Source: Cryobacterium cryoconiti
GTDB lineage: Bacteria; Actinomycetota; Actinomycetes; Actinomycetales; Microbacteriaceae
Length of the DNA stretch: 64,000 nucleotides
Assembly (NCBI RefSeq): GCF_004403065.1
Contig: NZ_SOHA01000001.1
Coordinates: 1 to 64,000 of the forward strand
Direction: 5' to 3'
Within the stretch, counting starts at the first letter, position 1, and each line of letters begins with the position of its first letter. Shown here in pieces: positions 51,804-60,684 of the stretch. A program made the translations under genes and the position numbers. The notes beneath the pieces are model-generated. The model was not told the origin of the DNA. It searched no databases and saw only the letters and a list, made by a program, of their open reading frames with translations.

Positions 51804-52043
51804 GCGGTGGCGCTCGCGGATGGTGACCGCTCACCGCACCTAACGACCAGCGTCCGGAACCGGCCTGGCCGTAGGAGCCAATCGAACCGACATTCGCCCC
51901 ATGCTAGGTGACGGGGACTCGGCCGCGCCCCTCTTGTTCCCCGTTCTGGGGTGAGCGCCTTGTCTCCGACCACGCCCCGCCTCCAGTACGTTTCGATCAG
52001 GCGTGTGTGCACTCGGTGTCGAGCGCATTGGAATGGGGATCAA

Positions 52044-53744
52044 ATGACGAATTTCGGCGAGCAACAAGAGCAACCAGCGACGGCTCAAGCGGGCGACGAA
52101 ACGCCGTTCTTCACCTTTGCCTCCGACATTGACGGCAAGAGCGCCACCGTCTCGGTCTTCCGGGATCGAATCGAGTGGTACAGGCTTCCTGGTGCGTCCG
52201 GTGGCACGCTCACGGCCGGTCTAGTGAATCTGGGCACGTCGCTCTTCGCGTCAGCCTCAACGAACGGCAAGAGCGCGACAGGGAGGATCCCCGTTGCGGA
52301 CATGTTGAGCGTCACTACTTCGCGAGGCCTTCGCAAGACGAAAGTCTCGCTGGTCGCCGCAGGCACCACCGTCGACTTCCGCGTGTCCCACGCCGATGCC
52401 GTCCGGGTCAAGAGCGTTCTCAAACAGCTGATCCTCGAGGCACACCCGCCGATGATGGCCCGACTCGGGAAATCGTTGGTCTCGAACTTGACGGGGTCCC
52501 AGCCGACTCTCAGCACCTGGATTCTTGGCGGTCTGGTCGCTTTCTTCGCCCTGATGTTTGCGATCGTTGGTGGATTCCCGGCAATTCTCGTCATTCTGGG
52601 AATGGCCGCCCTGGTGACCGGTGTGTATGCGATCGCCGGTCGCCGGCCATGGGCATCCCTTCCGGCCCGCCAGACCGTTGTGGTCGCGCTGGCTGCCAGC
52701 CTCGTGTTCTTCATTTCGGGTGGGGTCGTTGCTGCGGCGCCAGGTGCAGGTGATATTGCTGTTGCAGAGCAGCCCACGGCTAGTGCGACACCGAGCGCAA
52801 GCCCCACCCCGACCCCGACACCGACGCCGACTCCTGGCCCGGAGTTCTCCGAAGAAGCACCGGTCGACCCCACGACAGTCTCCGCTCCGACCGAGGCCGC
52901 ATCGGTCGTCGCAATAGACACAGGCTCCACCAACACGACGGCCCTCGAGCTGCTCGCAACGATCCCCGTCAAGGGCAAGGCCGCAAAGACCGGCTACGAG
53001 CGCACCGGCATGTTCGGCTCCGCCTGGATAGACGTGGACCAGAACGGATGCGACACCCGCAACGACATCCTCGCCCGGGACCTGACCACAATCACCCTGT
53101 CCGGAACCTGTCGGGTGATGACCGGTTACCTGGTCTCGCCGTACACCGCCTCGCCAATCGCCTTCGTTCGGGGTCAGGACACGTCAGCGTTCGTGCAGAT
53201 CGACCACGTCGTGGCTCTGTCCAATGCGTGGCAGACCGGAGCTCAGCAACTCACTCAGGCTCAGCGCGTTTCCCTGGCAAACGATCCCATCAACCTCCTC
53301 GCCGTCGATGGTCGCTCCAACGCTCAGAAGGGCGACGGCGACACCGCAACCTGGCTGCCATCGAACAAAGCGATCCGCTGCGGCTACGTCGCCCGTCAGG
53401 TGTCGGTCAAGGCAACGTATGGCCTGTGGGTCACTCAGGCCGAGCACGACGCGATGACTCGCATCCTCGGCTCCTGCACGGGTGAAATGGCGCTGACCTC
53501 CTCGTTCACTCCGGCGCCCGCTCCGGTTGTTGTCGCTCCTCCGGCGCCGGCTCCTGTCGTGGCACCGGTACCGGACCCGGAACCGGCACCAGCAGCCCCG
53601 GCCCCGGCCCCTGCACCAGTCGACGTTTACTACGAGAACTGCGATGCTGTGCGTGCCGCGGGAGCGGCCCCCATCCAAGCTGGATCGCCGGGCTTCCAGC
53701 CCAAGTTCGACCGTGACAAGGACGGCATCGGCTGCGACGCCTGA
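52044..53744 (+). CDS. Membrane-anchored protein with HNH (GmrSD/DUF1524-type) nuclease and excalibur domains
   Basis: Encodes 566 aa from ATG 52044 with GGGGA upstream. Residues ~15-135 form a PH-like cytoplasmic domain (FTFASDIDGKSATVSVFRDR). Two or more hydrophobic segments follow (ILGGLVAFFALMFAIVGGFP, VVVALAASLVFFISGG). After a TPTPTP linker, residues ~305-490 resemble GmrSD/DUF1524 HNH nucleases: DVDQNGCDTRNDILARDL, FVQIDHVVALSNAWQTGAQQ, NDPINLLAVDGRSNAQKGDG. The C-terminal YYENCDAVRAAGAAPIQAGS with DRDKDGIGCDA is an excalibur calcium-binding motif. Probably an exported or surface nuclease. Confidence 0.88.
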   Translation: MTNFGEQQEQPATAQAGDETPFFTFASDIDGKSATVSVFRDRIEWYRLPGASGGTLTAGLVNLGTSLFASASTNGKSATGRIPVADMLSVTTSRGLRKTKVSLVAAGTTVDFRVSHADAVRVKSVLKQLILEAHPPMMARLGKSLVSNLTGSQPTLSTWILGGLVAFFALMFAIVGGFPAILVILGMAALVTGVYAIAGRRPWASLPARQTVVVALAASLVFFISGGVVAAAPGAGDIAVAEQPTASATPSASPTPTPTPTPTPGPEFSEEAPVDPTTVSAPTEAASVVAIDTGSTNTTALELLATIPVKGKAAKTGYERTGMFGSAWIDVDQNGCDTRNDILARDLTTITLSGTCRVMTGYLVSPYTASPIAFVRGQDTSAFVQIDHVVALSNAWQTGAQQLTQAQRVSLANDPINLLAVDGRSNAQKGDGDTATWLPSNKAIRCGYVARQVSVKATYGLWVTQAEHDAMTRILGSCTGEMALTSSFTPAPAPVVVAPPAPAPVVAPVPDPEPAPAAPAPAPAPVDVYYENCDAVRAAGAAPIQAGSPGFQPKFDRDKDGIGCDA

Positions 53745-53803
53745 TGAATCGCGGCCAACGGCCTCCAATTTTTGAACGAACACCGCACTGCTAGGTTTGC
53801 GAC

Positions 53804-54124
53804 ATGGTCGAAATTTCAGTCCGCGACGAAATCGCGGCCTTCGTCGCCGAGCGTGATTGGGCGCAGTTCCACAGCCCCGAGAACCTGGCGAAGAGCATCG
53901 CCATCGAAGCCGGCGAACTACTCGAGTGCTATCAGTGGAACGCCGATGCCGACACCGATCGCGTGCGCGATGAACTGGCCGACGTGCTGACCTACTGCCT
54001 GCTTCTGGCGGACCGCCTCGGGGTGGACGCCGACCAGATCGTTCTCGACAAGCTGGTCAAAACCCGCCAGAAGTATCCGGTCGACAAAGCCCGGGGGCGC
54101 AGCGTCAAATATGACGCACTTTGA
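53804..54124 (+). CDS. MazG-like nucleotide pyrophosphohydrolase
   Basis: Encodes 106 aa. All-alpha NTP pyrophosphohydrolase: SPENLAKSIAIEAGELLECY gives the first acidic pair (EAGELLE) and RVRDELADVLTYCLLLADRL the second (DELADV), the metal-binding pattern of MazG/RS21-C6. It hydrolyses nucleoside triphosphates to monophosphates. It overlaps the next gene by 14 bp, so both proteins are made together. With a helicase-nuclease partner this suggests a role in phage defence or nucleotide stress. Confidence 0.87.
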   Translation: MVEISVRDEIAAFVAERDWAQFHSPENLAKSIAIEAGELLECYQWNADADTDRVRDELADVLTYCLLLADRLGVDADQIVLDKLVKTRQKYPVDKARGRSVKYDAL

Positions 54125-55892
54125 GATCGAGCGGCTCGACTTCACTAAAGAAGCGGTGCGGGCCTGGGCGCCGCGCGACCACCGCAATACCAATTGGCCG
54201 GTCGTCTACGTTTTGGACGATGCTGAGGCCGGCGGTAAAGCCGCGGTCAGGGGCAGCCTCAACGATGTCTACGTGGGGGAGTCGCGCAACGCGGCCGGGC
54301 GCATGCGGCAGCACTTCGAGTCGGCCGGCAAGAAGCACCTGAGCACGGTGCGGGTCATCGTCGACGCCACTTTCAACAAATCGGTGTGCCTGGATCTCGA
54401 GTCCTACCTGATTCGGATGCTCGCCGGCGACGGTTTCTACCGCGTGCTGAACCGCAACGACGGAATAACTGAGGCGGACTACTACGATCGCGGTCGGTAC
54501 CGTGAGACCTTCCGCGAGGTGTTCGACGAGCTCCGGCGTGACGGGGTCTTCACCCGGAGCATTCCCGAGATCGAGAACAGCGATCTCTTCAAGCTGTCCC
54601 CGTTCAAGGCGCTCTCGACCGATCAGGCCGTCGCCGTCGATGGCATCCTCGAGGGGCTCTTCGAAGATCTGAGGGCAGGCACCGACAGCACGATCGTCGT
54701 GCAGGGTGACCCGGGCACCGGCAAGACCGTGGTCGCGATTTACCTGCTCAAGCTGCTCGTCGACATTGCGACCTCGGCTCCTGACGATGATGTAGACAGT
54801 GATTCCCTGTTCTCCGAGTTCTTCGTGCCGGGTTACCGGGAGCTTCTCACGGACATCCGGATCGGCCTGGTCGTGCCACAGCAGTCCCTGCGTGAGTCCA
54901 TCAAGAAGGTGTTCCGCAAGACGCCCGGACTGCGCCCGGACATGGTAATGACCGCATTTGACGTTGGTTTCGCAGAGGATGACTTCGACCTGCTCATCGT
55001 CGACGAATCGCACCGGCTGAACCAACGAGCCAATCAGCCCTCGGGTGTTCAGAACAAGAACTTCAGCGAGATCACCCAGAAGCTCTTCGGGAGCGACGAC
55101 AAGACGAAGACCCAGCTCGACTGGATCACCGCGAAGAGCAAGCATCAGATCTTCCTGCTGGACGCGGCGCAGAGCGTTCGCCCGGCCGATGTGCCACCCG
55201 AGTTGTTGACCGGTCTCGTGCAGCAGGCGAAACTCTCGAGGCGTCACCATCCGTTGATGTCGCAGATGCGTGTGCAGGCCGGGGCGGACTACGTCGGCTA
55301 CGTCAGGCGCATCCTCGACACGACCACCGGGACCGGCACCTCGCCGGCAGTAACTGCCGAGCTGTTCGACGGCTACGATTTTCGCCTGTTCGACAGCATC
55401 GCTGGGATGCAGGCGGAGATCCGTCGGAAGGATACCGAGGTCGGCCTCTCGCGCCTGCTCGCCGGGTATGCGTGGGCCTGGAAGACAAAGACCGACAAGA
55501 CCGCCTACGACATTGAGATCGGCGGTTGTCAGCTGCGCTGGAACAGCACACAGACCGACTGGATCGCGTCGCCCAAGTCGGTGGACGAGGTCGGATCGAT
55601 CCACACCGTGCAGGGATACGACCTCAACTACGCGGGTGTGATCATCGGCCCGGACCTTCGCTTCGATCCCGTGGCGGGCAAGCTGATCATCGATCGCGGG
55701 TCGTACTTCGACAAGAAGGGCAAGGAGAACAATCCGGTCCTCGGCAAGACGTACACCGACGACGACCTCCTGCGGTTCATCACCAACATCTACGCGGTAC
55801 TGCTCACCCGCGGAATCCGGGGGACCTACGTGTATGTCTGCGATCCCGCGCTTCGCGAGTACCTGCGTGGATTCATCCCGATCGCTGTGTAG
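54111..55892 (+). CDS. GIY-YIG nuclease fused to a Schlafen-group-3 (DUF2075) helicase
   Basis: Encodes 593 aa. Residues ~28-115 are a GIY-YIG nuclease: VVYVLDD and DVYVGESRNAAGRMRQHF give the two Tyr and the Arg, LESYLI the Glu, LNRND the last Asn. From ~160 on is a DUF2075/PF09848 ATPase: Walker A GDPGTGKT at 199-206, GLVVPQQSLRESIKKVF, Walker B FDLLIVDESHRL near 292-303, HTVQGYDLNYAGVIIGPD (motif VI region) near the end. The fusion resembles helicase-nucleases of anti-phage systems. Overlap with a MazG-like gene strengthens this. Confidence 0.9.
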   Translation: MTHFEIERLDFTKEAVRAWAPRDHRNTNWPVVYVLDDAEAGGKAAVRGSLNDVYVGESRNAAGRMRQHFESAGKKHLSTVRVIVDATFNKSVCLDLESYLIRMLAGDGFYRVLNRNDGITEADYYDRGRYRETFREVFDELRRDGVFTRSIPEIENSDLFKLSPFKALSTDQAVAVDGILEGLFEDLRAGTDSTIVVQGDPGTGKTVVAIYLLKLLVDIATSAPDDDVDSDSLFSEFFVPGYRELLTDIRIGLVVPQQSLRESIKKVFRKTPGLRPDMVMTAFDVGFAEDDFDLLIVDESHRLNQRANQPSGVQNKNFSEITQKLFGSDDKTKTQLDWITAKSKHQIFLLDAAQSVRPADVPPELLTGLVQQAKLSRRHHPLMSQMRVQAGADYVGYVRRILDTTTGTGTSPAVTAELFDGYDFRLFDSIAGMQAEIRRKDTEVGLSRLLAGYAWAWKTKTDKTAYDIEIGGCQLRWNSTQTDWIASPKSVDEVGSIHTVQGYDLNYAGVIIGPDLRFDPVAGKLIIDRGSYFDKKGKENNPVLGKTYTDDDLLRFITNIYAVLLTRGIRGTYVYVCDPALREYLRGFIPIAV

Positions 55893-55986
55893 TCGACCTG
55901 ACCCGGGTGCCTGACCGCAACGGCCCGACCACCCCCAGGCAGTAGTCTGTGACGAGCGCAGCACACCCGGGGGGAAGAGCCGCATC

Positions 55987-56778
55987 GTGAGTATGACGAA
56001 TGTTTCAGTGTCGAGCGCTGCTCGTCAACGCATCCGTTCGTTCTCGGTCTGGGTGTGGGTTTTCGGCACCATGGTGCTTTTCGTCTTCGCGCTGAACACG
56101 TTCGGCGGAGGCGGCGAGAACGAGTTGGCGAACGGCGATGCGTTCAGCCCGTGGGAAGTTGCGGACCCACCTGTCTTCGAATCAAACGGAGTCACGTATT
56201 CGGGTGAGGCCAGCGGCCTGATCAAGATTCCCCTCGAGGATCACGATCAGGCCCCGTATCTGGTGAGCCTGGTCACCGGCGGCTACGTGAGCCTGTACGT
56301 GACCGAAACCTACGATATCGGTCAGGATGCCGACAACCGTGCCTACCCGACCAATGTGGGCGCGGTCGTGGGCCCCGAGGAGTTGCTGTTCGTCCCGCCC
56401 GACGCCGATCTCGAGCTCTGGGTGGAGACCGACGTCCCCTGGGAAATCACGCTGAAGCAGCCCCGGGTCACCGAGATCGCCGGCGGCTTCGCCAGCGGGG
56501 CGGGCAACGACATCCTCGTCTACCGGGGCGACGCGGCCAGCGCCCGCTTCGTGCACAAGGGAACGGGTGTGTTCTACGTCACCTTCACGACCCTCGGCAG
56601 GCCGGTCGGCGGGTCGATCATCAGTAACGGCGAGGTCGACGTGCGCCAGTCCTGGCCACCGAGCGACGCTGTCTACTTCTCCATCGAGTCCGACGGTTCC
56701 CCGAACGCCTGGTCCGTCGATATCGACGAACTGGCGACGGATGCCCCGACGCCCGACCCCCAGAAAGGAACGCAATGA
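55987..56778 (+). CDS. Membrane-anchored beta-rich protein, first gene of the Ycf46 operon
   Basis: Encodes 263 aa from GTG 55987 with GGAAG upstream. One membrane helix at residues ~20-40 (VWVWVFGTMVLFVFALNTF); the rest is outside, with a Val/Tyr/Asp-rich beta pattern and no Cys. I do not recognise a family. The stop overlaps the AAA ATPase start (ATGA), so it is part of the same translation unit and probably the surface component of the complex. Confidence 0.75.
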   Translation: MSMTNVSVSSAARQRIRSFSVWVWVFGTMVLFVFALNTFGGGGENELANGDAFSPWEVADPPVFESNGVTYSGEASGLIKIPLEDHDQAPYLVSLVTGGYVSLYVTETYDIGQDADNRAYPTNVGAVVGPEELLFVPPDADLELWVETDVPWEITLKQPRVTEIAGGFASGAGNDILVYRGDAASARFVHKGTGVFYVTFTTLGRPVGGSIISNGEVDVRQSWPPSDAVYFSIESDGSPNAWSVDIDELATDAPTPDPQKGTQ

Positions 56779-58400
56779 GTTTCGCCCAGACGCTCGACCA
56801 GGCCTTCAAAGCCCGCCTGCCGCTGCTGTACATCGAGACCAGCGAGGAGGTGCGCGCGCTCGAAGGAATCACTCGCGCCGCCCAGGCGCTGCGGCGCCCG
56901 CGCGAGGTCTGGACCTGGACCAGCGCCACCGGGCTGATCGGCCCCGACGGCAAGGGCGTCATCAACACGGCCACCCCCACCCGGGCGCTCGACCATGTCG
57001 TCGGCATCCCGGAGAACGCGGTCTTCGTCTTCTGCGACCTGCACGCCTACTTCGGCTCAGAGCAGCGCCCCGGCGACCCGGTCATCATCCGCAAGGTGCG
57101 CGAGACGGTGCTCGAGCTTCGGCACGCGGATGCCGCGCGTGCGCTGATCGTGACGGCCCCGGTGCGCGCCATCCCGCCGGAGCTGGACAAGCTCGCCCAC
57201 CTGCTCGAATTCCCGCTGCCCAACACGACCGAGCTGCGTTCCATGCTCGACGCGATGATCGAGAACAACTCGTCGGGCAGCGGCCGCATCAGCGTGAAGG
57301 CCGACGAGAAGACCCTCGAGGCCCTCGTGCAGGCGGCGCGGGGCCTCACCATGTCGGAGGCCGAGAACGCCTTCGCCCGGGCCATGGTCGACGATGGCCA
57401 ACTCGCCGCGGGCGACATCACGGTCGTGCTCGACGAAAAGCGCCAGATCGTGAGCAAGTCGGGTCTGCTCGACTTCGTCACCAAGGCGCTCGACCTCGAC
57501 TCCGTCGGCGGCCTGAACAACCTCAAGCGCTGGCTGTCCCGGCGCGACGGCTCCTGGCTGGGCGAAGCCGAGGAGTTCGGCCTGCCGGCCCCCAAGGGCG
57601 TGCTCATTACCGGCGTGCCCGGCTGTGGCAAGTCGCTCACCGCAAAAGCGATGGCCGCCTCCTGGGGGCTGCCGCTACTGCGGCTCGACATCGGCCGGAT
57701 CTTCTCCGGGCTCGTCGGCTCCTCGGAGCAGAACCTCCGCAACGCCCTCGCCACCGCCGAAGCCGTCGCCCCGTGCATCCTCTGGGTCGATGAGATCGAG
57801 AAGGGCTTCTCCAACACCACGGGCACCGGCGACTCCGGCACCACCGCCCGGGTCTTCGGCTACTTCCTCACCTGGATGCAGGAGAAGCAGCATCCGGTGT
57901 TCGTCGTCGCCACGGCCAACAACATCGACTCGCTGCCGCCGGAGTTCATGCGCAAGGGCCGTTTCGACGAGATTTTCTTCGTCGACCTGCCCACCGCTGT
58001 GGAGCGGCGCGCGATCTGGACCATCCAGCTCTCCTCCAACGCCACCGGCGGCAACGGTCTCGCGGCCTTCGGCGCCGCCGACGTCGAGAAGCTCGTCGCC
58101 GACAGCGAGAACTATTCGGGCGCGGAGATCGAGCAGGCCGTGATCGTGGCCCTCTACGAGGCCTTCGCCGAGCGCCGCCCGGCGACCCTGCGTGACCTCA
58201 CCGAGGCGATCACCAACATGATCCCCCTCGCCGTGACCCAAGCGGAGGAGGTGCAGACCATCCGGGCCTGGGCCGAGGTGCGCGCCGTGCGGGCCACGGG
58301 CAGTGAAGACATCGACCCCGAAGAAGACGCCCTGGTCGGCGCCGTCGACACCGGTGCGGGGCTCTCCAGCCGTCGCGGTGGACGCACCGTGGATTTCTAA
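56775..58400 (+). CDS. AAA ATPase, Ycf46 family
   Basis: Encodes 541 aa. N-terminal ~230 residues are a degenerate AAA-like domain typical of Ycf46 ([38 protein letters not shown]). The active AAA module has Walker A GVPGCGKS at 280-287, Walker [10 protein letters not shown] at 335-343, sensor ATANN at 379-383 and the arginine-finger region [11 protein letters not shown] at 392-402. Ycf46 is known from chloroplast genomes and cyanobacteria, where it affects CO2 uptake; its biochemistry is unknown. A hexameric unfoldase-like machine acting on the neighbouring proteins is inferred. Confidence 0.93.
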
Positions 58401-58409
58401 GGACATCCC

Positions 58410-58622
58410 ATGACAGACAAGCAGCTCATCGTGCAGGTACGCCCCGACGGCAGCGTGCACGCCGAAACCCTCGGCATGCACGGCAACGAGTGCCTTGACT
58501 ACATCGCCGTGCTCGAGAACATGCTCGACGCCGAGACCACCGCGTCGTCGTTCACGGATGCCTATGCCCAGGTCGAGGCGCAGCAGGAGTCGACGGCAGA
58601 GAACTGGGACGGCACGCCGTGA
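58410..58622 (+). CDS. DUF2997 family small protein
   Basis: Encodes 70 aa with AAGGACATCCC before ATG 58410. LIVQVRPDGSVHAETLGMHG then NECLDYIAVLENMLDAETT matches the DUF2997 family, whose conserved Gly-x-x-Cys-x-Asp block is GNECLD here. Such proteins are found next to ycf46 and DUF1257 genes in cyanobacteria. Function unknown; the single conserved Cys could bind a metal or cofactor made by the radical SAM partner. Confidence 0.87.
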   Translation: MTDKQLIVQVRPDGSVHAETLGMHGNECLDYIAVLENMLDAETTASSFTDAYAQVEAQQESTAENWDGTP

Positions 58623-59368
58623 CCCTGCTCGAGACACCGCGGATGCGCGGAGCGAGCCCCGCGCTCGGCACCGTTGAACCCACCGAACGACCCGGTGGTG
58701 AGCTGCGCTGGTCACGGTTCCTGCCCGCGACGACGGCCGAAGGCCCCGGCCTGCGCGCGGCCCTCTGGGTGCAGGGCTGCAGCGTTCGCTGCCCCGGCTG
58801 CTTCAACCCGCAGCTGTGGGCCGAGACCGGCGGCCGGCTCGAGAACACGGCCGATCTGGCCGCGAGCTGGGTGACGGATGCGCTCGGCGCGCACGCCCAG
58901 GGAATCACCCTTCTCGGCGGTGAACCGTTCGATCAGGCCGAGGGCCTGGCGACGGTCGCCGAGGCCTTCCGAGCCGCCGGACTCAGCGTGATGACCTTCT
59001 CCGGCTACCCCCTCGAGCGGCTCACCGAGTGGTCGGCGGCACGGGTCGACGTGGCCCGGCTGCTCGCCGCCACCGACCTGCTCATCGACGGGCCCTACCT
59101 CCGCGACCAGCCCGATGCCGTGCGCCCCTGGCTCGGCTCGACCAACCAGGGCATCCGTGCGCTCACCCCCGTCTACGCCGACGAGGTCGCCCGCATCGAA
59201 CAAAACGGCGGGCTCGACCGGCTCGAGATCCGCATCCGCCCCGACGGGCAGATCGACGTGAATGGCTGGGCCGACGACGCCGCCCTCGAGCAGCTTCTGC
59301 ACGACCTTGGCCCACGCCAGGACCGTCCCCAATCGCACCGGCCCGGAATGAAAGCGAGACTCGCATGA
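58619..59368 (+). CDS. 4Fe-4S single-cluster radical SAM protein, activase-like
   Basis: Encodes 249 aa from GTG 58619, overlapping DUF2997 by four bases. The cluster motif is GCSVRCPGC with Cys54, Cys58 and Cys61 (CxxxCxxC), then LLGGEPFDQAEGL (GGEP for SAM). The size and FNPQLW after the motif match NrdG/PflA-type activating enzymes, which make a glycyl radical or modify a partner protein. No ribonucleotide reductase or formate lyase gene is near, so the target is probably a protein of this operon. The 35-residue N-terminal extension is unusual. Confidence 0.88.
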   Translation: MTLLETPRMRGASPALGTVEPTERPGGELRWSRFLPATTAEGPGLRAALWVQGCSVRCPGCFNPQLWAETGGRLENTADLAASWVTDALGAHAQGITLLGGEPFDQAEGLATVAEAFRAAGLSVMTFSGYPLERLTEWSAARVDVARLLAATDLLIDGPYLRDQPDAVRPWLGSTNQGIRALTPVYADEVARIEQNGGLDRLEIRIRPDGQIDVNGWADDAALEQLLHDLGPRQDRPQSHRPGMKARLA

Positions 59369-59859
59369 GTGTCACCCTGATCCTGCTTCCCATCGCCCTG
59401 GCCGCTGCCGCCGCGGCCGGAGGAGTCGGTGTTCTCGGCGCCGCGGTCACGGCGAAGGGCGGGAACGACTCCGGCCCGGCCGCAGAGATCCGGGTGCGCA
59501 CCCGGATGAAGGACAGCACGCTGCTCGCCGAGGCCCTGACGAACCTCGGCGCCTCTGCGATCGACGTGTCGCGCACCCGGGTCACCGCTGAAATCGACGG
59601 TGTTTCGCTGACCATGACCCTCACCGACGACGGCGTGTGGGAGGCCCATGTCGAAGGCCGGGACGGGCACGAAGTCACCCTCGCCAGCGCGACCGAATTG
59701 CTGCAGCGACTCGACGGCGAGTATGCCGCGATGGTGCAGCGGGCCGTCGCGGAGAAGATCCGCGCACGCGCGGAGAGCTCGGGCTTCGACCTCGTCTCGG
59801 AGACCAGGGAAGCGGATGACACCGTGACCATGGTGCTCAACGTTCGCGCCCAGGCGTGA
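59365..59859 (+). CDS. Membrane-anchored Ycf35/DUF1257-like protein
   Basis: Encodes 164 aa from ATG 59365, overlapping the radical SAM stop (ATGA). The N terminus has a hydrophobic LILLPIALAAAAAAGGVGVL helix, not usual for this family; the rest (IRVRTRMKDSTLLAEALTNL, then VTAEIDGVSLTMTLTDDGVW) resembles DUF1257/Ycf35, known from cyanobacteria and plastids. The family is a small beta-alpha protein with no known activity. Its gene order after ycf46 and DUF2997 supports the match. Confidence 0.72.
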   Translation: MSVTLILLPIALAAAAAAGGVGVLGAAVTAKGGNDSGPAAEIRVRTRMKDSTLLAEALTNLGASAIDVSRTRVTAEIDGVSLTMTLTDDGVWEAHVEGRDGHEVTLASATELLQRLDGEYAAMVQRAVAEKIRARAESSGFDLVSETREADDTVTMVLNVRAQA

Positions 59860-59877
59860 TGAACCGATGACCAACCG

Positions 59878-60657
59878 ATGACGAACAGGGCGAACACGGC
59901 GTCCGCGACGGGACCCTCGATCGGCTGGCGCCTGGGCGCGAGCTCCTGGTTGCTGCTCCTTTTCGTCGGTAGCGGCGCCCTGGCTGCGCTGGCGTTCGGG
60001 CTCCTCGCCGGTGTCGCCCGGCGTCGGTCCTGGACGATCTTCGCCGGGGTGTACGCGGTGGCCGCCATCATCGCGCGGATCCCAGAGGGGAATCTGGGGC
60101 AGATCACCCAGGGCAGTCTGTTCCTGGTGGTGATGCTGCACGGCCTGATCATCAATCAGAGTTGGCTTCTGCTGCTCTGGGGCCGCAAGGAGAACGGCCT
60201 CACGTTCATCGGCACTCCACGCCGCGCCCCACGCCGCAGGAAGTCCCGTGCCCGGACTGCCGCCACGCCCCGCCGGCGCGCGGCGGCGGTCACGAAAGAA
60301 GCAGTCCCGAAGGAAGCCGAGAAGCTGCTCAGCGGCGGCGGCACGTCGAGGTCTGATTACGTCGCCGATACGCCGGCATCGACGCGTTCGGCGCCGGTCG
60401 CCACGGTCGCCGCCGCCGAACTGGTCGACGTGAACACGGCGAACCAGCGTACGCTCGCGAAGCTCCCCGGCATGGACCGCTTGCTGGCGAAGGCGGCGGT
60501 CACCGAGCGCAGCAAGCGCGGCGGCTTCGCCTCCCTCGACGCCTTCGCCGCGTCGGCCGGGCTGCAGCCGCACGAAATGGTGCGCCTGGGCAGTGAGGCC
60601 TTCTGTTCGACCCGCCCGCGGGCCCCCCGCAGCTTCGGCCGCCGCGTCGACTACTGA
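59878..60657 (+). CDS. Membrane protein with C-terminal helix-hairpin-helix domain
   Basis: Encodes 259 aa from ATG 59878. Three hydrophobic segments in the first ~110 residues (SWLLLLFVGSGALAALAFGL, WTIFAGVYAVAAIIARI, LFLVVMLHGLIINQSWLLLL). A basic linker ([20 protein letters not shown]) leads to a ComEA-type helix-hairpin-helix: VDVNTANQRTLAKLPGMDRL then AKAAVTERSKRGGFASLDAF. HhH domains bind DNA backbone. Last gene of the operon; could tether the system to DNA or to another protein at the membrane. Confidence 0.8.
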   Translation: MTNRANTASATGPSIGWRLGASSWLLLLFVGSGALAALAFGLLAGVARRRSWTIFAGVYAVAAIIARIPEGNLGQITQGSLFLVVMLHGLIINQSWLLLLWGRKENGLTFIGTPRRAPRRRKSRARTAATPRRRAAAVTKEAVPKEAEKLLSGGGTSRSDYVADTPASTRSAPVATVAAAELVDVNTANQRTLAKLPGMDRLLAKAAVTERSKRGGFASLDAFAASAGLQPHEMVRLGSEAFCSTRPRAPRSFGRRVDY

Positions 60658-60684
60658 GCCGGCAGCTGCCTGCAACCCGCGGGC

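Follow-up and report, generated by a model that had tools for sequence, protein, structure and literature searches.

The window analysed here, the first 64,000 nucleotides of contig NZ_SOHA01000001.1 of Cryobacterium cryoconiti (assembly GCF_004403065.1), carries an operon built around a Ycf46-like AAA+ ATPase (hereafter the AAA). The AAA, a DUF2997 protein, a radical S-adenosylmethionine (radical SAM, rSAM) protein, a distant relative of Ycf35 and a membrane protein with a helix-hairpin-helix (HhH) domain form a conserved, co-inherited module. No description of this five-gene module was found in the open-licence PubMed Central literature, and it is undescribed within the literature searched. 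The operon is mobile and cassette-like, and the AAA and HhH proteins both end in Rx(VIL)(DE)(hydrophobic)-COOH, with G mostly preceding the R. We consider it slightly more likely than not that this tail serves the AAA machine as a docking code. The features of the operon are as follows (aa, amino acids).

55929..60663, forward strand: cassette, delimited by the reach of DNA homology with six further Cryobacterium loci (blastn).
55987..56778, forward strand: protein 1, 263 aa from a GTG start, with an N-terminal transmembrane anchor (18-36) and a predicted outside domain of no known family.
56775..58400, forward strand: Ycf46-like AAA+ ATPase, 541 aa; ATGA overlap with the protein 1 gene.
58380..58400, forward strand: C-terminal tail of the AAA, GRTVDF-stop (tail pattern counts).
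58410..58622, forward strand: DUF2997 protein with conserved G..G..C, 70 aa; 9-bp gap after the AAA gene.
58619..59368, forward strand: NrdG-like radical SAM protein (CxxxCxxC, GGEP), 249 aa; GTGA overlap with the DUF2997 gene.
59365..59859, forward strand: membrane-anchored relative of Ycf35/DUF1257 (protein 5), 164 aa, with one N-terminal transmembrane segment; ATGA overlap with the rSAM gene.
59878..60657, forward strand: membrane protein with a C-terminal ComEA/GspK-like HhH domain (180-234) and a tail, 259 aa; starts 18 bp on.
60637..60657, forward strand: C-terminal tail of the HhH protein, GRRVDY-stop (tail pattern counts).

GTDB contigs were scanned with the AAA protein, which returned 379 relatives; the best 80 were taken and, with the window, gave 81 loci. 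Profile searches within 8 kb of the AAA detected DUF2997 at 77 of the 81 loci, the rSAM protein at 76, the Ycf35-like protein at 78 and the HhH protein at 79, and all five core genes lay on one strand within 6 kb at 74 of them. At least four gene orders were present among the module loci, namely AAA-DUF2997-rSAM-Y35-HhH (Y35, the Ycf35-like gene) in Microbacteriaceae, AAA-Y35-DUF2997-HhH-rSAM in Micromonosporaceae, HhH-rSAM-AAA-Y35-DUF2997 in most Gastranaerophilales loci and DUF2997-HhH-rSAM-AAA-Y35 in clostridial and Coriobacteriaceae metagenome-assembled genomes (MAGs); Paenibacillus faecis (L069) and a Planctomycetaceae MAG (L073) had further arrangements. This combination of constant content and shuffled order argues that the five genes constitute a functional unit. 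An earlier note, made from the sequence of the window alone, had staked its reading on whether these neighbours accompany ycf46 in other genomes, and they do. It had also described a six-gene operon; an open reading frame (ORF) check placed all six ORFs, with their overlaps and the 9-bp gap, where the note had put them, and conservation across phyla excludes chance. The first gene, however, falls outside the conserved core, protein 1 being an add-on of Microbacteriaceae and Georgenia found at 31 of the 81 loci (in two copies at 18 of the 31). A promoter and terminator scan gave no signal above shuffles.

The distribution of the operon is patchy. An AAA match with an E-value of 1e-60 or better was present in 8 of 57 Cryobacterium, 6 of 150 Microbacteriaceae and 7 of 199 Bacillota genomes; among the seven Bacillota genomes that of L069 has the module, and no module genes were seen beside the AAA of the other six in the stretches examined. 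DUF2997 exceeded the Pfam cut-off in 2 of 296 Actinomycetota genomes and in 87 of 146 genomes of the cyanobacterial phylum. When the window was compared by blastn with the six other Cryobacterium loci, the matches started at 55929-55941 and ended at 60657-60663 in five, the sixth being cut at a contig end, and the flanks were unrelated except in L032, where the next gene gave a 347-base match out of place. The flanks of the Cryobacterium loci fell into several clusters. The module was found on three plasmids, all five genes being detected by hidden Markov model (HMM) on plasmids of Paenarthrobacter and Rhodococcus, the latter typed as conjugative, and one viral contig, L212, carried all five core genes.

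The shared tail was counted with the pattern [GER][RK]x[VIL][DE][FYLIVM]-stop. It was present in 75 of 82 AAA proteins and in 74 of 84 HhH proteins, the latter a figure that leans upward because the HMM used to collect HhH proteins includes tail columns, and it was absent from DUF2997 (0/77), the rSAM protein (0/77), the Ycf35-like protein (0/80) and protein 1 (0/49). Among other ORFs of at least 60 aa, a background of all six-frame ORFs of which many are not genes, it occurred in 3 of 7058. Two checks were freer of bias from the pattern and the HMM. In the 3.43-Mb genome of C. cryoconiti the DNA pattern GR-x-(V/I/L/M/F)-D-(F/Y)-stop, with Arg as CGN, occurred twice only, at the ends of the AAA and HhH genes (reversed control, 1). 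In the three plasmid modules, which were fetched later and whose AAA/HhH ends are RQIDF/RKLDI, RTFEF/RRLEF and RRIDF/RTLDL, the HhH protein fitted the pattern in three of three cases and the AAA in two of three, the third being RTFEF.

One of the three background ORFs was an Mrr protein of L070 (Gastranaerophilales). This locus, L138, L173 and L185 each encode a third tailed protein, with Mrr_cat matches (E 1.5e-19 to 2e-23) and GGVD...QCK; these tailed Mrr proteins of the cyanobacterial phylum have two or three transmembrane-like segments and end in YG(R/K)(K/R)LDI. At all four loci they adjoin paralogous HhH proteins that are likewise tailed.

Among AAA homologues scoring at least 200 bits, collected before the viral scan and partly near-copies, 88 had both the tail and an HhH neighbour, 6 the tail without HhH, 7 HhH without the tail and 20 neither; the rows are related, and no p-value is given. 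In a quick tree, thinned from 198 to 117 rows and possibly including tail columns, the module AAAs formed one supported group in which 34 of 37 were tailed, with the tail-less AAAs of Bacillota and the cyanobacterial phylum outside it. A separate viral AAA group had 19 tailed members among 26 in the tree, and no rSAM, DUF2997 or HhH gene was seen beside these AAAs. Their neighbour gene had a looser hydrophobic-D/E-hydrophobic end in 22 of 28 cases versus 83 of 1102 other ORFs, and among untailed non-viral AAAs of all groups a looser hydrophobic-acid-hydrophobic end was present in 6 of 27. The ORFs of this viral neighbour gene are about 250-390 aa long, for example at L272:5944-8359, where the product matches phrog_11021 and no Pfam family. 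While the tail is a plain feature of both proteins, we infer its function and its reader; leaning on the viral group, where no other module genes were seen, we propose that the tail is read by the AAA or by a factor bound to it. The rSAM protein and DUF2997 are less likely readers, as neither was seen near the tailed viral AAAs.

Pfam E-values for the operon proteins were 1.5e-30 for AAA, 4e-12 for DUF2997 (46.3 bits against a gathering cut-off of 24.1, which makes the protein a member), 1.7e-30 for Fer4_12 on the rSAM protein and 6.2e-10 for HHH_3 on the HhH protein. The Radical_SAM model remained below cut-off on the rSAM protein (4.9e-4), and the scan gave no convincing family for protein 1 or protein 5. 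Ycf46-like ATPases consist of an inactive N-terminal RecA-like domain and one active AAA domain, in about 500 aa. The operon AAA has an N-domain without Walker A followed by an active-type AAA domain (Walker A GVPGCGKS, Walker B LWVDE); the invariant residues of the alignment restrict Walker A and B to its C-terminal half, the predicted structure has a confident N-domain of alternating strands and helices, and the nearest solved relatives are VCP/CDC48-type. On this definition we tentatively label it Ycf46-like.

Protein 5 was compared with the best-scoring DUF2997 loci found in the cyanobacterial phylum, 30 stretches of 3.1 kb each. An HMM of its module relatives picked out, in all 30, the Ycf35 protein next to DUF2997 (E 7e-5 to 1e-9), hhalign of these relatives against the Ycf35 alignment gave a probability of 94 and an E-value of 1.1e-7, and the Pfam DUF1257 model gave no match. 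Judged on these profiles, protein 5 is a distant Ycf35/DUF1257 relative that is not a member by the Pfam rule, and the likeness proposed earlier, together with the added membrane helix, is borne out. Residues 42-160 of its model form a confident alpha/beta domain (predicted local distance difference test score, 82.5), with no match to PDB folds below an E-value of 0.001 (best 0.012, template modelling score 0.39) and no trustworthy solved sequence relative (best E 0.0014, a designed protein). By hydropathy, protein 1 and the Ycf35-like protein each have a single transmembrane-like segment and the HhH protein has two, against none in the AAA, DUF2997 and rSAM proteins, which upholds at this level the membrane linkage claimed for the operon. 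By the positive-inside rule the Ycf35-like domain, the HhH domain and the tail would face the cytoplasm and protein 1 the outside. ComEA-type DNA-binding HhH domains possess two intact G-h-G hairpins; the operon protein seems to lack this pair, a PH motif replacing the second (alignment, by eye), and by a crude test PH lay within the last 80 residues in 73 of 84 HhH proteins.

The rSAM protein belongs to the radical SAM proteins by its motifs, CxxxCxxC being present in 77 of 77 aligned stretches and GGEP in 76 of 77. Against the NCBIfam NrdG model it reached 3e-25 and 89 bits, below the cut-off of 126.1 bits, and it does not qualify as an NrdG. The sole NrdD of the genome lies about 45 kb downstream on the same contig and adjoins its own NrdG, which at 180.4 bits is over the NCBIfam cut-off and to which the operon rSAM is 33% identical over 178 aligned positions. 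The possibility that the operon rSAM is the missing activase of this reductase, which the earlier note had singled out as fatal to its reading, was rejected because NrdD has this adjacent NrdG. The accompanying claim that no glycyl-radical enzyme is nearby also stood, NrdD being the only one found in a search that did not include pyruvate-formate-lyase families. Among loci found via the AAA, DUF2997 stood with the rSAM at 86 of 87 (genomes, 75 of 76; viral contigs, 11 of 11), and both the HhH and Ycf35-like genes were missing from 10 of the 11 viral rSAM loci. As a near-constant neighbour, DUF2997 is the likeliest candidate for the substrate or partner of the rSAM, and we think it probable that the rSAM acts on it. 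The more specific proposal that the rSAM modifies the DUF2997 Cys is less well supported: the Cys is invariant both in the module (77/77) and in the 30 cyanobacterial-phylum copies (30/30), in whose 3.1-kb stretches no rSAM was seen, and therefore has a role beyond the rSAM. On a Treponema succinifaciens plasmid (L295:5354-7509), an rSAM gene and an AAA ending VRKLEM precede a gene annotated as phage baseplate assembly protein V.

Related loci carry variants of the module. Several loci of the cyanobacterial phylum combine AAA with DUF2997 (L132, L135, L144 and others). At L135:5330-9741, an AAA without the full tail (its end, LQLEI, is of the looser form), DUF2997, Ycf35, Hsp70 and a GrpE-like protein stand in a row, and at L142:6363-10428 an AAA without the full tail, DUF2997 and rSAM occur with Hsp70; these two loci represent a chaperone variant. 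Ten viral loci (L217, L218, L226, L228, L230, L232, L233, L242, L244 and L264) have AAA-DUF2997-rSAM with neither HhH nor the full tail. Their contigs measure 60-244 kb, eight of them at least 148 kb, and three are near-identical here; the rSAM of L230 had no relatives in the named phage collection at 1e-15. The variants suggest a core of AAA and DUF2997, often with rSAM and Ycf35, that has exchangeable partners, either Hsp70 or the tailed HhH and Mrr proteins.

Just upstream of the operon, window positions 51951-55892 encode a GmrSD_C/Excalibur protein, a MazG-like protein and a GIY-YIG and SLFN-g3 helicase. Of the 57 Cryobacterium genomes, 14 gave strong matches to the helicase (E below 1e-50), and 11 of these lack the AAA. 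Nine Cryobacterium genomes with the helicase and without the AAA showed no module DNA after the helicase, four of them having a GmrSD_C-type gene there. The helicase and the MazG-like gene were thus rejected as module parts, lying outside the cassette edges, with the helicase mostly found without the AAA.

We favour the reading, at chances a little short of even, that the operon encodes a membrane machine, mobile and self-contained, in which the AAA recruits partners bearing the tail. The anchored Ycf35-like protein would hold an AAA hexamer at the cytoplasmic face of the membrane, and an HhH or Mrr partner would reach the hexamer through its own copy of the tail, in competition with the tail of the AAA itself, whereupon ATP hydrolysis would pull on or remodel the tailed partner. 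The rSAM protein would modify DUF2997, which may then act as a sensor or cofactor subunit licensing the ATPase. The object would be DNA at the membrane, most likely that of an incoming plasmid or phage. That the machine is DNA-directed, which is suggested because the partners carry HhH and Mrr domains and the operon is mobile, we put forward tentatively, and that it serves defence proper we regard as unlikely. The full proposal is that an R-x-(V/I/L)-(D/E)-hydrophobic-COOH code recruits interchangeable tailed membrane effectors (HhH or Mrr nuclease) to Ycf46-like motors, DUF2997 being a very small licensing protein that undergoes radical modification and may bear a glycyl or thiyl radical at G..G..C, in an undescribed mobile system that acts on DNA at the membrane and has trimmed versions in viruses; taken as a whole it is speculative and rather improbable.

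Several observations weigh against this reading. Apart from the upward lean of the HhH figure, the first, narrower tail pattern gave 68 of 82 AAA and 49 of 84 HhH proteins and was widened after the ends had been inspected. Most loci were gathered via the AAA, so that tailed loci without an AAA may be missed, and the presence of an AAA at all tailed loci says less than it appears to. Seven AAAs with an HhH neighbour are off the pattern, six from Micromonosporaceae (L045-L047, L049, L053, L148) and that of L080 (RALTF), and six tailed AAAs had no HhH gene found. In the monomer model of the AAA the tail is predicted to be disordered, with no docking site readable, which neither supports nor excludes docking. 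The binding of DNA by the HhH domain is uncertain because its second G-h-G hairpin seems lost; of the DNA-binding type domain proposed in the earlier note the HHH_3 match stands, and the binding is in doubt. At L050 an AAA and HhH pair with none of the other three module genes within 8 kb keeps the tail on both proteins, which speaks for the reading, but the genome has DUF2997 elsewhere, so the pair is no proof of a two-part system; L052 ends at a contig edge. The Treponema plasmid had no DUF2997 or HhH gene in the 13 kb examined. Ycf35 and DUF2997 stand without AAA, HhH or rSAM in the 3.1-kb stretches of the 30 cyanobacterial loci. Most Microbacterium loci, finally, occupy a single common site (14-15 at one, with three at another), and adenylosuccinate synthetase accounted for four flank proteins of the scanned set.

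Two further observations concern AAA loci of this kind. The Dactylosporangium genome of L050 (also L147 and L148) has several Ycf46-like AAA modules of differing type, one of them a tail-less DUF2997-rSAM-AAA module with a canonical-type Ycf35 nearby. L080, on a contig filed as a Bordetella parapertussis MAG, has an AAA and HhH pair whose AAA groups with the Paenibacillus AAA in the tree, which casts doubt on the label; its assembly yielded no DUF2997.

The same operon could instead serve stress-linked protein quality control, with the AAA remodelling membrane or redox proteins and the HhH domain acting as a protein-protein module. The Hsp70 variants (L135, with the GrpE-like protein and Ycf35, and L142), the apparent loss of the second HhH hairpin and the common chromosomal site in most Microbacterium loci are consistent with this, as is, in the available part of PMC7496141, the place of Synechocystis slr0374 (Ycf46) in a stress operon and the lowered EcaB activity on its inactivation. 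Both Hsp70 variants, however, show no HhH and no full tail (L135 having only the looser end), and a housekeeping role fits poorly with an AAA found in 8 of the 57 genomes from a single genus and with copies on plasmids and in a viral contig; we think the quality-control reading unlikely. A comparably low probability is given to anti-plasmid or anti-phage defence on DNA at the membrane. The patchy, mobile operon, with homology ending at its edges, the adjoining SLFN-g3/GIY-YIG helicase and the tailed membrane Mrr nuclease of four relatives all point towards it, as do the matches of PADLOC IetA models to the AAA domain (best 2.5e-24). These matches, however, span the AAA domain only, the NCBIfam IteA cut-off being far off (67.8 versus 510 bits); on the operon proteins PADLOC gave only AAA-domain and weak viperin matches, and the component set of no listed system was complete. 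The helicase is no partner, 11 of its 14 genomes being without the AAA, viral contigs themselves carry the AAA-DUF2997-rSAM triad, and the common Microbacterium site and the degenerate HhH hairpin also argue against defence. When 118 flank proteins of 11 loci (81 available) were compared with 113 proteins from 11 control stretches at arbitrary coordinates in the same 11 genomes, 28 PADLOC families were found at 1e-15 in the flanks and 10 in the controls. Among the 25 of the 28 flank families listed, each was represented by one protein of the 118, except mad3 with three members; the surplus came mostly from DrmMI and type IIG models, possibly one or two shared proteins, and the remainder resembled the controls. 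The enrichment near defence genes that the earlier note had suggested as a check is therefore not clear with so few proteins, which also counts against the reading that we favour.

Two other explanations concern single parts of the operon. The rSAM could activate the anaerobic ribonucleotide reductase, or some other glycyl-radical enzyme, as a reserve or alternative to the usual activase, its neighbours being unrelated, which agrees with its NrdG-like sequence; given that nrdD has its own adjacent nrdG over the cut-off, and that the rSAM accompanies DUF2997 across phyla and on viral contigs, this is very improbable. C-terminal hydrophobic tails can act as protease signals, and no binding partner of the tail is known, so the tail could be a turnover or processing signal for a host protease or other host factor, or a relic of gene conversion. 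The tail, however, is on the motor itself and is kept across phyla on proteins of different families, and gene conversion can hardly account for the fact that the unrelated viral partner ends in a similar way; we therefore judge this explanation doubtful.

The module resembles known systems in part. The available text of PMC4284462 describes a cyanobacterial cluster DUF2997 - ycf35 - fed7, and that of PMC7496141 relates cyanobacterial Ycf46 (Slr0374) to stress and CO2 use, with an apparent effect on carbonic anhydrase. The module shares with the cyanobacterial cluster a homologous DUF2997 (G..G..C) and the Ycf35 domain, and AAA homologues stand beside DUF2997 in some loci of the phylum. In contrast, canonical Ycf35 starts MSHF, has no anchor and is paired with DUF2997 without the other three genes in the 30 stretches compared, and cyanobacterial AAAs outside Gastranaerophilales-type loci have no full tail, some having the looser end. 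The MoxR-vWA ternary conflict systems (eLife 2020, PMC7159879) likewise combine an ATP-driven core with an rSAM, which in the FtsH ternary subtype is thought to modify a small peptide effector, and another conflict system type in that paper has GrpE and Hsp70, as far as its accessible portion goes; vWA and MoxR, however, were not found in the operon by family scan, and the terms Ycf, HhH and helix-hairpin had no matches in that portion of the paper. With IetAS/TRIP13-type defence ATPases the likeness is confined to the AAA domain, none of their partners being recognised among the operon proteins. With ComEA/GspK the HhH protein shares an HHH_3 domain on a membrane protein, but differs in the PH motif at the second-hairpin place, the tail and the AAA and rSAM neighbours, and family scans placed no other operon protein in a competence or type II secretion family above cut-off. 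Of the undescribed membrane stress, competence-like or defence system proposed in the earlier note, the co-inherited, membrane-linked and undescribed unit thus remains, while the PADLOC flanks did not clearly exceed the controls. The note had overlooked the tail common to AAA and HhH proteins, the movement of the operon as a cassette, its occurrence on plasmids and in viral DNA, and the Mrr nuclease that bears the tail in some relatives.

To our knowledge, Ycf46, Ycf35 and DUF2997 have no established biochemical function. The fixed partners and the common tail of the module make these families biochemically testable, through the binder of the tail, the action of the rSAM on DUF2997 and the object of the motor. 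If the tail is indeed a recruitment code, new effectors would be findable from their last six residues.

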